DNA from: a bacterium BMS3Abin11
Lineage (GTDB): Bacteria > Pseudomonadota > Gammaproteobacteria > BMS3Bbin11
Direction of reading: 5' to 3'
Assembly (NCBI GenBank): GCA_002897635.1
Contig: BDTD01000015.1
Span: 1 to 64,000 of the forward strand
DNA: 64,000 nucleotides
A model generated the notes under the pieces. That model was not told the DNA's origin and did no database searches. It worked only from the letters and a program-made list of their open reading frames with translations. The translations under genes were made by a program, and so were the position numbers. Numbering within the stretch: the first letter of the stretch is position 1; every line of letters starts with the position of its first letter. Positions 10,644 through 55,514 of the stretch are shown one piece after another.

Positions 10644-10676
10644 TCCAGAAATAAAGGTCATCTCTATAAATTAGTA

Positions 10677-11807
<1,131 letters not shown>

Positions 11808-15500: not shown

Positions 15501-15518
15501 AAGAAGTTTCATGTTTCA

Positions 15519-15724
15519 AGACCTCTATTAATTCATGAATAACCACCTTGAATCCAAAACCTGCCATCTCTGCGTTAAGAACCTTCGCAATAGCTAGTTA
15601 TTTCGAAGTACACGGATGTACAAGTGCCGTGATGACAGGATGTCATGGAGCGGCCATGCGTTCCTTGCCTTAATATGACAGGTTTTGAATCACAATCCGG
15701 CATCCAGAATTAATAGAGGCACCC
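15519..15724. mobile_element. Fold-back MITE, type A, with internal insertion
   Basis: Both arms match the complete copy at 29870-30027 in reverse orientation: ACCTCTATTAATTCATGAAT at the left, AATTAATAGAGG then CACCC at the right, and the central CTTCGCAATAGCTAG motif. The right flank is TTAA and the left TCAA, a degraded 4-bp duplication. Near the centre, at about 15604-15655, there is an extra stretch of some 50 bp with small palindromes (GTACACGGATGTAC, ATGACAGGATGTCAT). No transposase is encoded. Confidence 0.8.
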
Positions 15725-16543: not shown

Positions 16544-17300
16544 ATGAAAAGACATTACTTCATTAGTGATAGCCTGGATGTCCTGGATAACATCGAACAG
16601 CGACTGGAAAAGAGAGGCATCGTCCGATCGCAAATCCATGTTCTGAGTGGAGATGATGCCGGGGCGGAAAACCACGACCATCTTCACAAATAAACTACCC
16701 CGCAGCAAGCTGACGGGGTATTAAATGTAGGTGCGAATTCATTCGCACAGCGATGCCAATGTTTATGCACATTGTGCGAATGAATTCGCACCTACAGTTT
16801 TCGTGGCAAGCCACGGGGAATTATGCCCATAGGGATTAAAGTTTGATGTGGTACATGGAACGATGCTGGGTACAATTGCCGGTTTTGCTCTCGCCATTGT
16901 TATACTGGCGATCGGTGAATTGACTAATCTCACCGCCACCTATACATGGACACCGTTTATATTTCTGGCCTTTGTGCTGTTTGGCTTCAGTACATGGTTC
17001 GGTGGCTACCATGGCATTCAAATACCGTATAAAGACTTCAGAAGATTTGAGGATGCCTTATGTGAAAGCAAGCAGGTGTTTTTCGTTGAAATCGACCGGG
17101 ATCAGGAGCGGGTTCTGAAAGAGGTCACCAGTAAACATCCCGGGTTAAAAAAAGCCGGCACCGGTACAACTACACCACGCCGGGTCGTCTATGGTCAGGA
17201 TAAGACTGTGAATATTGCTACTCACACATTCCCCTGGTATCAATCGTCATTCTGGACGAAGCATAGCGCAGATCCGGAATCCAGATTTTATTATCAGTGA
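16544..17300 (+). pseudogene. Small membrane protein gene split by REP-like insertion
   Basis: Two halves of one gene are visible. The first (16544-16693) encodes MKRHYFISDSLDVLDNIEQ...HVLSGDDAGAENHDHLHK and stops. The second, in another frame from about 16835, encodes LKFDVVHGTMLGTIAGFALA, a second hydrophobic helix and FRRFEDALCESKQVFFVEID...TPRRVVYGQ. In intact relatives known to me from pseudomonads and other gammaproteobacteria, annotated loosely as NAD/FAD-utilizing proteins, these parts are continuous. The break is filled by palindromic repeats at 16697-16838. The last 18 codons lie inside another repeat. The second part alone could still be translated from a GTG at 16848. Confidence 0.8.
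16697..16838. repeat. Composite REP-like palindromes, copy 2
   Basis: Three palindromic units in a row: ACCCCGCAGCAAGCTGACGG with GGTATTAAA after it, a TGTAGGTGCGAATTCATTCG inverted repeat (16726-16796), and GTGGCAAGCCACGGGGAATT. Together they interrupt the gene spanning 16544-17300. Confidence 0.85.
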
Positions 17301-28607: not shown

Positions 28608-29810
28608 TTAGCCGCTAGCCTGGGTGTTATCTCCCCCTATGAGAATTTTCTGATACAGGCGCTGTGTTTCGGGCAGGGGCTGGACGCCAAACTCCCGGGC
28701 TAGAACCTGGTGACAGTGGCGGTACTGAACCTGCGCCAAATCGGGACGGCCATCCTTCACCAGGTACTCCATCAGTATAAAATGGAAGTTCTCTCGGCAA
28801 GGATCGAAAACCAGGGCTTTGCGACAAATGTGTATTGCATCTGCATACTGGCCAAGTTCTACGTAGCATTCCGCTGTTCTGGCCAGCATCTCCAGATAAA
28901 GTTCATGCAGCCGCTCTCGCTCTTCGGCACACCAGTCCGAATACGTCTCTTCTTCCAGATAATCGCCCTGATATAGATGTCTTGCCTCATTGTAGCGGTC
29001 CAGGGCATCACTCCATTGCTCTAGTTGTTGTAGCGCCTGTCCCTCGACGACAAACCGTTCAAAGACGTCCGTGTCCACCCAGATCACATCGCGTCTGAGC
29101 AGGTAGGCATTATCGATCGTTTTCACGGCCTCATCGCTTACGCCATTTGCGCGCAACTCTTGCCGTAGACAATACATAGTTACTTTGAGGCGGCCCCAAC
29201 CCTGCTTTTCATCGACGTCGGGCCACAGACAGTCGATCAGACGTTCGCGATGTACGGGGTGATCGAGTTGGGTGACCAGGTATTTCAGCAGCGTCACGGC
29301 GTGTTTGCGTTTCCACTTACCGATATCAATGCTATGTCCGCCCGCCACAATGCCGAAACCACCGAGGGTAAATACCTGCAGTGTATGATGTTGTGGCACT
29401 GGGGCTACGATCGCCTCATCCCGTAGGAAAATGATGGCCAGGATTTTGTCACCATACAGACGGCGGGCCCGTTCCGACATGGCAACAGAGGAGATGCTGG
29501 CCATAACCCATTTACCGCTCTGGTGTCGCAAACGGCAACTGGGTACATTGTAAGGTATGCAGTTCCGGAAAGACCGCAGGACGTCACAATCGGGATGGCA
29601 GAGAGGCTCGCCGCCGGGCAGAGTGGCCTGCAGCACATTGCAACACCGCTGGCCAATCGCCTCGGATGGATTGTAGCCGAGCATCTGTTGTGCCCCGACG
29701 TTCCAGGCCACAACCCTGTCATCGACGTCGATGGCTAAGGCGGCGTCGGAGGCAAATTCAACTAAATCAGTGGCATGAGTAATCACTTCATCTGATCCTG
29801 AAAATTCCAT
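28608..29810 (-). CDS. PAS-BTAD transcriptional regulator next to nar operon
   Basis: A 400-residue one-component regulator. Residues about 10-125 form a PAS domain with six cysteines packed into 56-92 (C56, C57, C71, C75, C84, C92). About 145-240 form a winged-helix DNA-binding domain (LGGFGIVAGG, KWKRKHAVTLLKYL, LIDCLWPDVDEKQGWGRLKVTMYCLRQEL). From 245 there is a bacterial transcriptional activator domain of TPR-like helices. It is encoded in line with the nar operon, whose promoter carries matching direct repeats. No NarX/NarL pair is in the window. Redox or oxygen sensing by the cysteines is inferred. Confidence 0.85.
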   Translation of the reverse strand: MEFSGSDEVITHATDLVEFASDAALAIDVDDRVVAWNVGAQQMLGYNPSEAIGQRCCNVLQATLPGGEPLCHPDCDVLRSFRNCIPYNVPSCRLRHQSGKWVMASISSVAMSERARRLYGDKILAIIFLRDEAIVAPVPQHHTLQVFTLGGFGIVAGGHSIDIGKWKRKHAVTLLKYLVTQLDHPVHRERLIDCLWPDVDEKQGWGRLKVTMYCLRQELRANGVSDEAVKTIDNAYLLRRDVIWVDTDVFERFVVEGQALQQLEQWSDALDRYNEARHLYQGDYLEEETYSDWCAEERERLHELYLEMLARTAECYVELGQYADAIHICRKALVFDPCRENFHFILMEYLVKDGRPDLAQVQYRHCHQVLAREFGVQPLPETQRLYQKILIGGDNTQASG

Positions 29811-29869
29811 TTGGTCTTCTACATACTAGATGATAGCCCACTTAACTAAAATACATCAATAATATTTAA

Positions 29870-30027
29870 GGGCACCTCTATTAATTCTGGATAATTCAGA
29901 TTGGATTCAAAAGCTGTCAGATCAAGGCAAGAAACGCACGTAATAGCTAGCTATTGCGAAGGTTCTTAACGCAGAGATGACAGGTTTTGGAGTCAAGATG
30001 ATTATTCATGAATTAATAGAGGTGCCC
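29870..30027. mobile_element. Fold-back MITE, type A, complete copy
   Basis: A 158-bp imperfect full-length palindrome. Ends GGGCACCTCTATTAATTC and GAATTAATAGAGGTGCCC, arms of about 80 bp alignable throughout, and centre AATAGCTAGCTATT. Flanks are TTAA (29866-29869) and CTAA (30028-30031), a 4-bp YTAR-type duplication with one change. The right flank includes the TAG stop of the DsrC-like gene. No coding capacity. Confidence 0.88.
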
Positions 30028-30366
30028 CTAACCTGTACTCCAGGCCCTCGGATGTCTCATCCCCGCAATTTTACAGGCCTGCTTCACATACCCATAGGGA
30101 AATATCTTGAAGAGATAATTCCTTGCTTTTTTGCCATAACCCAGTTCTTCTGCGATAAATTTTGCAACATAACGTGTACCGGGCGCTATTTTCTGATCAT
30201 CAAAATAATTACGCATACAGGTTATTATTTCCCAATACTCATCATTGAGTTCAATACCTTCGCCCTGTGCCAGATGTTCACATATCTCTCTGCTCCAGTC
30301 GTCGGGATCAATCAGGTAGCCCTCTTCATCCGTGGGGATGGTTATTTCGCCTACTTTTAATGGCAT
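30028..30366 (-). CDS. DsrC/TusE-family sulfur-related protein lacking the C-terminal cysteine
   Basis: The 112-residue protein has the DsrC fold text: DEEGYLIDPDDWSREICEHLAQGEGIELNDEYWEII, the KIAPGTRYVAKFIAEELG helix region and FKIFPYGYVKQACKIAGMRHPRAW. True DsrC has two C-terminal cysteines and TusE at least the penultimate one. Here the inner cysteine (C98) is present but the outer position holds W109. It therefore resembles the regulatory DsrC-like group rather than a sulfur carrier. AAGGAG precedes the ATG, and an FNR-type box lies upstream. A MITE abuts its stop codon. Confidence 0.9.
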   Translation of the reverse strand: MPLKVGEITIPTDEEGYLIDPDDWSREICEHLAQGEGIELNDEYWEIITCMRNYFDDQKIAPGTRYVAKFIAEELGYGKKARNYLFKIFPYGYVKQACKIAGMRHPRAWSTG

Positions 30367-30404
30367 ACAGAAATACTCCTTTCTTAATACATTGCATACA
30401 GCTT

Positions 30405-30452
30405 ATAGATATCCTAAAGAAGATTCACAATATATTAATTGATCCATATCAA
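30405..30452 (-). promoter_or_regulatory. FNR-type box and promoter of dsrC-like gene
   Basis: TTGATCCATATCAA at 30439-30452 is a perfect TTGAT-N4-ATCAA site. On the minus strand a TATAAG-like -10 lies about 30 bp downstream, so the box would be near -41.5. Anaerobic activation of the DsrC-like gene is inferred. It is the second perfect FNR-type box found here, the other being at hppA. Confidence 0.75.
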
Positions 30453-30479
30453 TTAATAACAAAAAAAATAGAGCAACCG

Positions 30480-30525
30480 TACCCTCTCTGAACAGGACAA
30501 ACTGATTACCTGTCTGGAGGGTTGC
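30480..30525. other. Imperfect hairpin in intergenic region
   Basis: ACCCTC...CAGG and CCTG...GAGGGT form a broken stem. There is no T-tract, so the role is unclear. The region 30453-30592 has no gene. Confidence 0.35.
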
Positions 30526-30592
30526 CGGAATGACTAGTGGGTAATTATTCAGATGCTTCTTTCATTTCACTTCCAGCTGGTAATCGCTTTCA

Positions 30593-30873
30593 GGGCACCT
30601 CTATTAATTCTGGATAATTCAGATTGGATTCAAAAGTTGTCAGATCAAGGCAAGAAACGCAGGTAATAGCTAGGGAACCTCTGATTAATTCTGGACGAAG
30701 TAGATTGCGATCTAAAATATTCAGGTTTGAGGCGTAAATCGCACGTAATAGCTAGCTATTGCGAAGGTTTGCAACGAAAAAACTGGATATTTTAGGCGTA
30801 AGATACGAGTTCATGAATTGATCAGAGGTTCCCTAGCTATTGCGAAGGTTCTTAACGCAGAGATGGCAGGTTG
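30593..30873. mobile_element. Fold-back MITE, type A, interrupted and missing its right end
   Basis: The left arm (from 30593) is nearly identical to the copy at 29870 up to the central CTAG. There a type B element is inserted (30674-30832), and the match resumes with CTATTGCGAAGGTTCTTAACG to about 30873, where the right end is lost at the border of a broken nitrate reductase gene. Confidence 0.85.
30674..30832. mobile_element. Fold-back MITE, type B, nested in type A
   Basis: A 159-bp palindromic element with ends GGAACCTCTGATTAATTC and GAATTGATCAGAGGTTCC, exactly flanked by CTAG on both sides (30670-30673 and 30833-30836). The undisturbed type A centre has one CTAG, so this is a clean 4-bp target duplication. 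Its own centre again reads AATAGCTAGCTATT. Confidence 0.9.
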
Positions 30874-30901
30874 GAACCCCAGGCAAACAGACAATCTGTA
30901 G

Positions 30902-31224
30902 TTCAAAATCTTCGTAACATCCCGGAGGGCCATCCGAACCAAATGAACGCTTGTAGCCGGATACCGCAGAAGCCATACACAGCGGGGTATTTCCGTCGTA
31001 ATTGTTGGTACCGATGAAGCCCCGAGTAAGTTTACCCAGGGTATAAAACTCTTCCGTCAGCATTAGCGACCCCTCGAGAAGCCACCGGCTTACCGTCCGT
31101 CCTCATTTAAGCCAACTTCAATTGAACAACCAGTGGAACAGTAACCACATACAGCATATTTCCACTCAACCACGCCCTTGTCAGCGATCTTGATCGGGTT
31201 CTTTTGTGTGCGTCCAAATAGCAT
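30902..31224 (-). pseudogene. nasA: Remnant of assimilatory nitrate reductase catalytic subunit
   Basis: Ten bases after the nirD stop, an ATG at 31224 opens a frame reading IKIADKGVVEWKYAVCGYCSTGCSIEVGLNEDGR, then stops at 31090. This is the N-terminal [4Fe-4S] binding end (C-x2-C-x3-C) of an assimilatory nitrate reductase. A second frame (31063-30902) continues with LTEEFYTLGKLTRGFIGTNNYDGNT, LCMASAVSGY and FGSDGPPGCYEDFE, the next block of the same family. Then homology ends near a MITE. Some 50 codons between the blocks and the remaining ~700 residues are gone. The order nirB-nirD-nitrate reductase is that of classic assimilation operons. Confidence 0.88.
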
Positions 31225-55356: not shown

Positions 55357-55514
55357 GGAAGCTCTGATCAATTCATGAACTCGTATCTTACGCCTAAAAA
55401 TATCCAGTTTTTCGTTACATACCTTCGCAATAGCCAGCTATTACGTGCAATTTGCGCCTCAAACCTGAATATTATAAATCGCAAGCTACTTCGCCCAGAC
55501 ACATCAGAGATTCC
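55357..55514. mobile_element. Fold-back MITE, type B, with TTAA duplication
   Basis: A 158-bp palindromic element, reverse-oriented relative to the nested copy at 30674. Ends GGAAGCTCTGATCAATTC and a degenerate partner finishing in AGAGATTCC, with the inner TACGCCTAAAAATATCCAG and CTTCGCAATAGCCAGCTATT text shared. It is flanked on both sides by exact TTAA (55353-55356 and 55515-55518). It lies between the divergent kinase and yicC genes. Confidence 0.88.

Follow-up and report, generated by a model that had tools for sequence, protein, structure and literature searches.

Hairpins of about 158 bp recur in the window, by which we mean the whole 64,000-nt stretch of DNA analysed here, and one of them sits in the middle of another. 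What kind of DNA are these hairpins, what moved them, and does the hairpin centre attract further insertions? A sequence-only reading had proposed nested fold-back MITEs with IS5-type target duplications and a centre that may act as a homing site. Our analysis indicates that the two types, A and B, are probably non-autonomous fold-back MITEs that were moved in trans by two different IS5-family transposases, a reading to which we assign a probability of about 0.88. We base this reading on element ends that match those of full-length IS5 elements, on duplicated flanks, on the dozens of copies in the genome, and on an empty site in a relative.

Results

Type A and type B elements of the window

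Both types are present with a length of about 158 bp, at coordinates that the sequence-only reading had given exactly or nearly so. A complete type A MITE of 158 bp occupies positions 29870 to 30027 on the forward strand. It ends in GGGCACCTCTATTAATT and the reverse complement, and its flanks, TTAA and CTAA, agree at three of four bases. A second A copy on the same strand is split. Its left half, which runs through the central CTAG (30593 to 30673), is 97.5% identical to positions 1-81 of the first copy, and its right part (30833 to 30872), which opens with a second CTAG, is 97.5% identical to A positions 78-117. Between the two parts lies a complete, nested type B MITE of 159 bp (30674 to 30832, forward strand) with CTAG on both sides, the left copy at 30670 to 30673 and the same four bases at 30833 to 30836. 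The sequence confirmed that a B element had inserted at the central CTAG of an A copy, splitting it and doubling these four bases. Four further copies elsewhere in the genome match the nested B copy at 100% identity and form with it an identical group of five. The split A copy (30593 to 30872) is cut short at 30872, and its right quarter, A positions 118-158, is therefore missing.

The sequence that follows, at 30873 to 31224, is what remains of a gene for a molybdopterin oxidoreductase that resembles assimilatory nitrate reductase; its model scores fall below the cut-off because the frame is incomplete. This gene is longer in three genomes of the same genus (G002, G004, and G006), and one edge of its deletion lies inside the split A copy, at 30872.

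Elsewhere in the window, the reverse strand carries a long-form type A MITE of 208 bp (15517 to 15724), which has an off-centre module of about 51 bp and one damaged end. A further type B MITE on the reverse strand (55357 to 55514) is 89% identical to the nested B copy and has TTAA on both sides, as had been reported. An older A-ended element with an unrelated hairpin core (CGTCATTGCG...) lies at 10655 to 10788 on the forward strand. It is 76% identical to an A-ended 129-bp element on contig C27 (locus L275) over positions 1-119 of the latter, which is flanked by TTGA on both sides.

Hairpin fold and the two length forms

The elements had been described as full palindromes, but the hairpins are imperfect, with an identity to their own reverse complement of 0.73 for A and 0.69 for B. 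RNA folding predicted energies of -75.8 kcal/mol for A and -77.0 kcal/mol for B (z = -12.7 and -13.1, respectively), and none of 200 shuffles was as stable as the A or the B hairpin. The MITEs measure 158-159 bp in a short form and 204-210 bp in a long form and carry no transposase gene.

The copy at 15517 to 15724 does hold extra DNA near its centre, as had been noted; however, this DNA lies off centre and proved to be a long-form module and not an insertion at the centre. The same stretch of about 51 bp was found beside the centre in two other A copies (C7:67587 and C4:90157) and in three B copies (C8:10892, C11:78788, and C22:73782). Because A and B copies share the module at the same place, an insertion was ruled out. 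The module is part of a long form common to both types, and was presumably lost in the short form, a gain being less likely.

Genome-wide census and target duplications

The search for all copies that had been proposed was run on the genome of the window (2,669,039 bases in 38 contigs) and revealed dozens of dispersed copies of each type. The A query returned 125 candidates and the B query 126; 40 of each were scored, and both queries filled all 40 places. As for the ends, the A pattern (at most one mismatch) had 164 matches in the genome, compared to 8 for a reversed-pattern control, and the B pattern (at most three mismatches) had 191, compared to 4; the first 100 matches of each pattern were listed. 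Within the stretches fetched from the genome, a script paired the ends into 110 elements, among which are a few artefacts, two being the nested composites themselves, and outside which fall copies that have lost one end. The elements fell into size classes of ~158 bp, 204-210 bp, 259-263 bp, and ~129 bp, together with end-only palindromes of 26-38 bp.

Tabulating the flanks, as had also been suggested, showed exact 4-bp repeats at 58 of the 110 paired elements of the fetched stretches and none at the remaining 52. When flank partners were shuffled 2000 times, the mean number of exact repeats was 11.3 and the maximum 21. Duplication of a YTAR target is the rule for IS5. The exact repeats of type B followed it in 34 of 36 cases. 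In contrast, YTAR accounted for 7 of the 22 exact repeats of type A, all seven being TTAA, and 20 of the 22 consisted of A and T only (TATA, TAAA, ATAT, and others). The YTAR share thus differs strongly between B and A (Fisher P = 5.6e-7). The earlier proposal that CTAG and TTAA fit the YTAR duplication of the IS5 group therefore stands in its assignment of both types to IS5, and in the YTAR rule for type B. It fails in that rule for type A, where the A-type IS of the same genome is itself flanked by ATAA.

Transposase-bearing partners

A search for IS5-like elements with matching ends had been recommended, and it identified a partner for each type: that of A in the same genome and that of B in a genome of the same genus. 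In both partners, a DDE transposase gene lies between ends that match those of the MITE, and each MITE has its terminal inverted repeats in common with a transposase-bearing IS. In the genome of the window, the search for PF01609 transposase genes yielded one, which lies between A ends. This partner of A is located on contig C11 (locus L106, 1320-2573), has GGGCACCTCTATTTAG ends with ATAA on both sides, and encodes a transposase that scored 242 bits against NCBIfam NF033581 (IS5 family; cut-off 140).

The partner of B is an IS of 1171 bp on contig C118 of genome G005 (locus L319, 143-1313). Its first 19 bp are identical to those of B, its other terminus is B-like, and its two flanks differ (CTAA and TTAA) and thus form no exact repeat. 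The encoded transposase of 324 aa (PF01609) scored 355 bits against NF033581 and is 28% identical to the transposase of the A partner. With the B transposase as a query, matches at E 1e-20 were found in 14 of the 95 genomes searched. Among 30 loci that were fetched, five besides the one in G005 have paired B-like ends 0.9-1.7 kb apart, the second end being doubtful in one of them (L355); exact 4-bp repeats flank two of these five elements (TAAG and TTAA). The genome of the window (99.92% complete, 38 contigs) gave no match to the B transposase at E 1e-20.

Relatives of both transposases occur on plasmids. The one of A, on a Cereibacter plasmid, is 44% identical and has GGGCACCTC ends with TGCG on both sides. 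The one of B, on a Klebsiella plasmid, is 62% identical, and no B-like ends were found within 600 bases of the match.

Movement and spread

The A copy at 29870 to 30027 is absent from the same locus of G003, a genome of the same genus, where the sequences corresponding to window positions 29602-29868 and 30029-30383 adjoin. This empty site is consistent with mobilisation in trans, presumably by the transposase of the partner. In type B, five of the 31 short copies are identical, and the median pairwise identity is 0.94, compared to 0.84 for A copies. Identical copies and the higher identity among B copies point to recent movement of B. As the search of the genome itself yielded no B transposase, such movement would need a partner that was lost or left unassembled, or cross-mobilisation.

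In the named genome collection, 111 stretches contain the centre sequence, and the 80 listed of these 111 all come from uncultured proteobacterial MAGs, mostly gammaproteobacterial. Type B matched at E 1e-5 in 15 of the 95 genomes searched, including that of the window, and had no match at E 1e-5 in plasmids; the 21-base centre had no exact match in viral contigs.

Relation of type A to type B

Consensus sequences were built from 34 A and 31 B copies. They align over their whole length, with an identity of 0.95 in the centre and 0.55-0.65 in parts of the arms; over the outer 20 bases it is 0.85 at one terminus and 0.71 at the opposite one. The A and B ends differ by the same small changes at both termini. 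Hybrids occur as well: a B end is paired with an A end in two copies (C33:44544 and C33:111398), and in a third (C20:38141) the inner arms are exchanged. Such hybrids show that copies also exchange sequence with one another.

End pairs of both types also enclose unrelated hairpin cores (259-263 bp and ~129 bp), and ends without any core make up palindromes of 26-38 bp. Several of these elements have target duplications, and ends and cores thus seem to assort.

The CGTCATTGCGAGG... hairpin repeat is enclosed by B ends in one case and by A ends in two, its loci being L124 (C6:68991-69119), L275 on C27, and window 10655-10788. Palindromes of 34-38 bp at L108, L114, L115, and L116 contain nothing but two A ends and are flanked by exact 4-bp repeats; they may be tiny units that transposed as such, or larger copies that lost their interior. 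A 259-263-bp family with B ends and an unrelated core has mostly YTAR flanks (L109, L107, L113, L120, and others). Another hairpin repeat of ~153 bp, present at window 16688-16840 and in L276 on C28 with 99% identity, sits in the latter inside the arm of an A element.

Nested insertions

Split centres were scanned in 263 loci, and two clear nested cases emerged in this genome: the one at 30674 in the window and one at C15:68778, where B has entered a complete A copy at its CTAG and is again bordered by CTAG at either end. The host A copies differ in sequence, which makes these separate events. The second B copy has a 1-base deletion near its right end, and its CTAG/CTAG flanks were for this reason not scored as exact by the script; the seven CTAG insertions of B considered below therefore comprise six scored repeats and this one, added by eye. 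A further candidate, C22:86171, has TTAG on its left and CTAG on its right but no A arm beyond, and was left out.

Centres in other genomes were deduplicated by their 80-base context. A few rows at contig edges are artefacts, and the loci of G003 and of the MAG M_MetaBat.99 appear to represent one assembly. The proposed tabulation of insertions at centres yielded a second case of B in A in this genome but none at 120 distinct centres elsewhere, 76 of them in B-ended copies.

Weighing the alternatives

If the hairpins were not mobile DNA but served the host as terminators or mRNA-stability elements, their strong folds and intergenic location would be expected: none of 61 elements read with 1 kb of flank was enclosed by a predicted ORF, with ORF calls being crude. 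We consider this very improbable in view of the exact target duplications, the empty site, the identical dispersed copies, and the matching IS ends. Moreover, only 4 of the 61 elements lie between convergent genes, compared to 5 of 34 gaps in the window, and a search of six loci found no Rfam family at gathering score. A different question is whether A and B are unrelated MITEs whose common centre arose by recombination, that is, by gene conversion between hairpins. The three hybrids and a centre far better conserved than the arms would agree with it; however, the consensus sequences align from end to end, the inner ends ATTAATTCTGGA included, and each type occurs in both a short form and one longer by ~51 bp. 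Descent explains both of these features, and recombination as the origin of the common centre therefore seems unlikely to us. The simplest reading of the data is that both descend from one hairpin and that the transposase changed along the way.

The proposed homing site implies that the B transposase favours the palindromic CTAG at A and B hairpin centres over other CTAG sites, perhaps via cruciform extrusion. Two separate insertions into the centres of differing A copies speak for it, as does the published targeting of REP palindromes by IS, which includes an IS5-family element (PMC1525189). How surprising two cases are depends on the denominator. A 271-kb sample of the genome contained 45 CTAG sites at element centres, 53 at other intergenic positions, about ten of which are duplicates that insertion produced, and 159 inside predicted genes. 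With genic sites counted as available, 0.15 of the seven insertions would be expected at centres (P = 0.010 for at least two). Yet intergenic sites are the fair comparison, because none of the 61 elements lies inside a predicted ORF. Element centres make up about 10-21% of intergenic CTAG sites, and with these treated as equal, 0.67-1.49 nested cases are expected against the two seen (P = 0.14-0.46 for at least two). Together with the lack of nested cases at the 120 centres read in other genomes, this makes homing improbable, more so than the recombination origin. The centre resembles a common landing site more than a homing system; homing is not needed, and the nested insertion by itself is ordinary.

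Discussion

Under the preferred reading of A and B as MITEs moved in trans, each transposase would bind the terminal ~13-17 bp of its MITE, excise or copy the element, and join it to a 4-bp target cut with a stagger, which would be an A/T-rich 4-mer for the A transposase and YTAR for that of B. In the nested case, a B element would have treated the central CTAG of an A copy like any other YTAR target. Either after or before this insertion, a deletion would have removed the right end of the split A copy and, with it, most of the neighbouring nitrate-reductase-like gene. Both types probably descend from one ancestral hairpin, in which matched small changes at the ends would have brought in different transposases; a fold-back element could fix such changes at both ends at once if one arm served as the template for the other. 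A more specific version, in which the core switched its master from an older A state (lineage 1, A/T targets) to a younger B state (lineage 2, YTAR), is one that we hold tentatively, at somewhat less than even odds.

A single hairpin core occurs with ends that belong to two separate IS5 transposase lineages, as though its master had changed. The elements form a clean natural series in which one can ask how a MITE gains and switches the transposase that moves it: this small genome holds hundreds of ends, and two lineages of transposase, 28% identical, go with one common core, alongside hybrids, long and short forms, and end-only miniatures. The literature searches made found no name for the A/B family and no paper on a hairpin core common to two transposases, which may therefore be new.

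Bacterial MITEs are a known kind of element (reviewed in PMC10969869), to which A and B are a large, well-resolved addition. One close likeness is to MITECca01 of Cardinium, an IS-derived MITE with 169 copies and an IS982 partner in the same genome (PMC9769881). Like A and B, it is non-coding, has IS-like ends, numbers dozens to hundreds of mostly intergenic copies, and has an identifiable partner IS family. In contrast to MITECca01, A and B have two IS5 lineages and a common fold-back core, and the B partner was not found in its own genome (B transposase, E 1e-20).

Compared to IS5-family insertion sequences (NF033581), the likeness lies in partner transposases that score above the cut-off and in the YTAR duplication of B. 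The MITEs differ from them in having only the terminal 13-19 bp in common, and the A lineage in duplicating A/T 4-mers beyond YTAR. As for nesting, IS insertion into REP palindromes, as described by Tobes and Pareja 2006 (PMC1525189) with the IS5-family case ISNm1106 included, shares with our case a mobile element at a fixed point of a dispersed palindrome; unlike there, the nested pair here is a MITE in a MITE, with two cases and no preference seen beyond CTAG. Finally, QMITE2 of Coxiella is a target of IS1111, which recognises a REP within the MITE (PMC10969869). Both systems thus offer a MITE as a landing site for another element, the target in the A/B case being a 4-bp CTAG.
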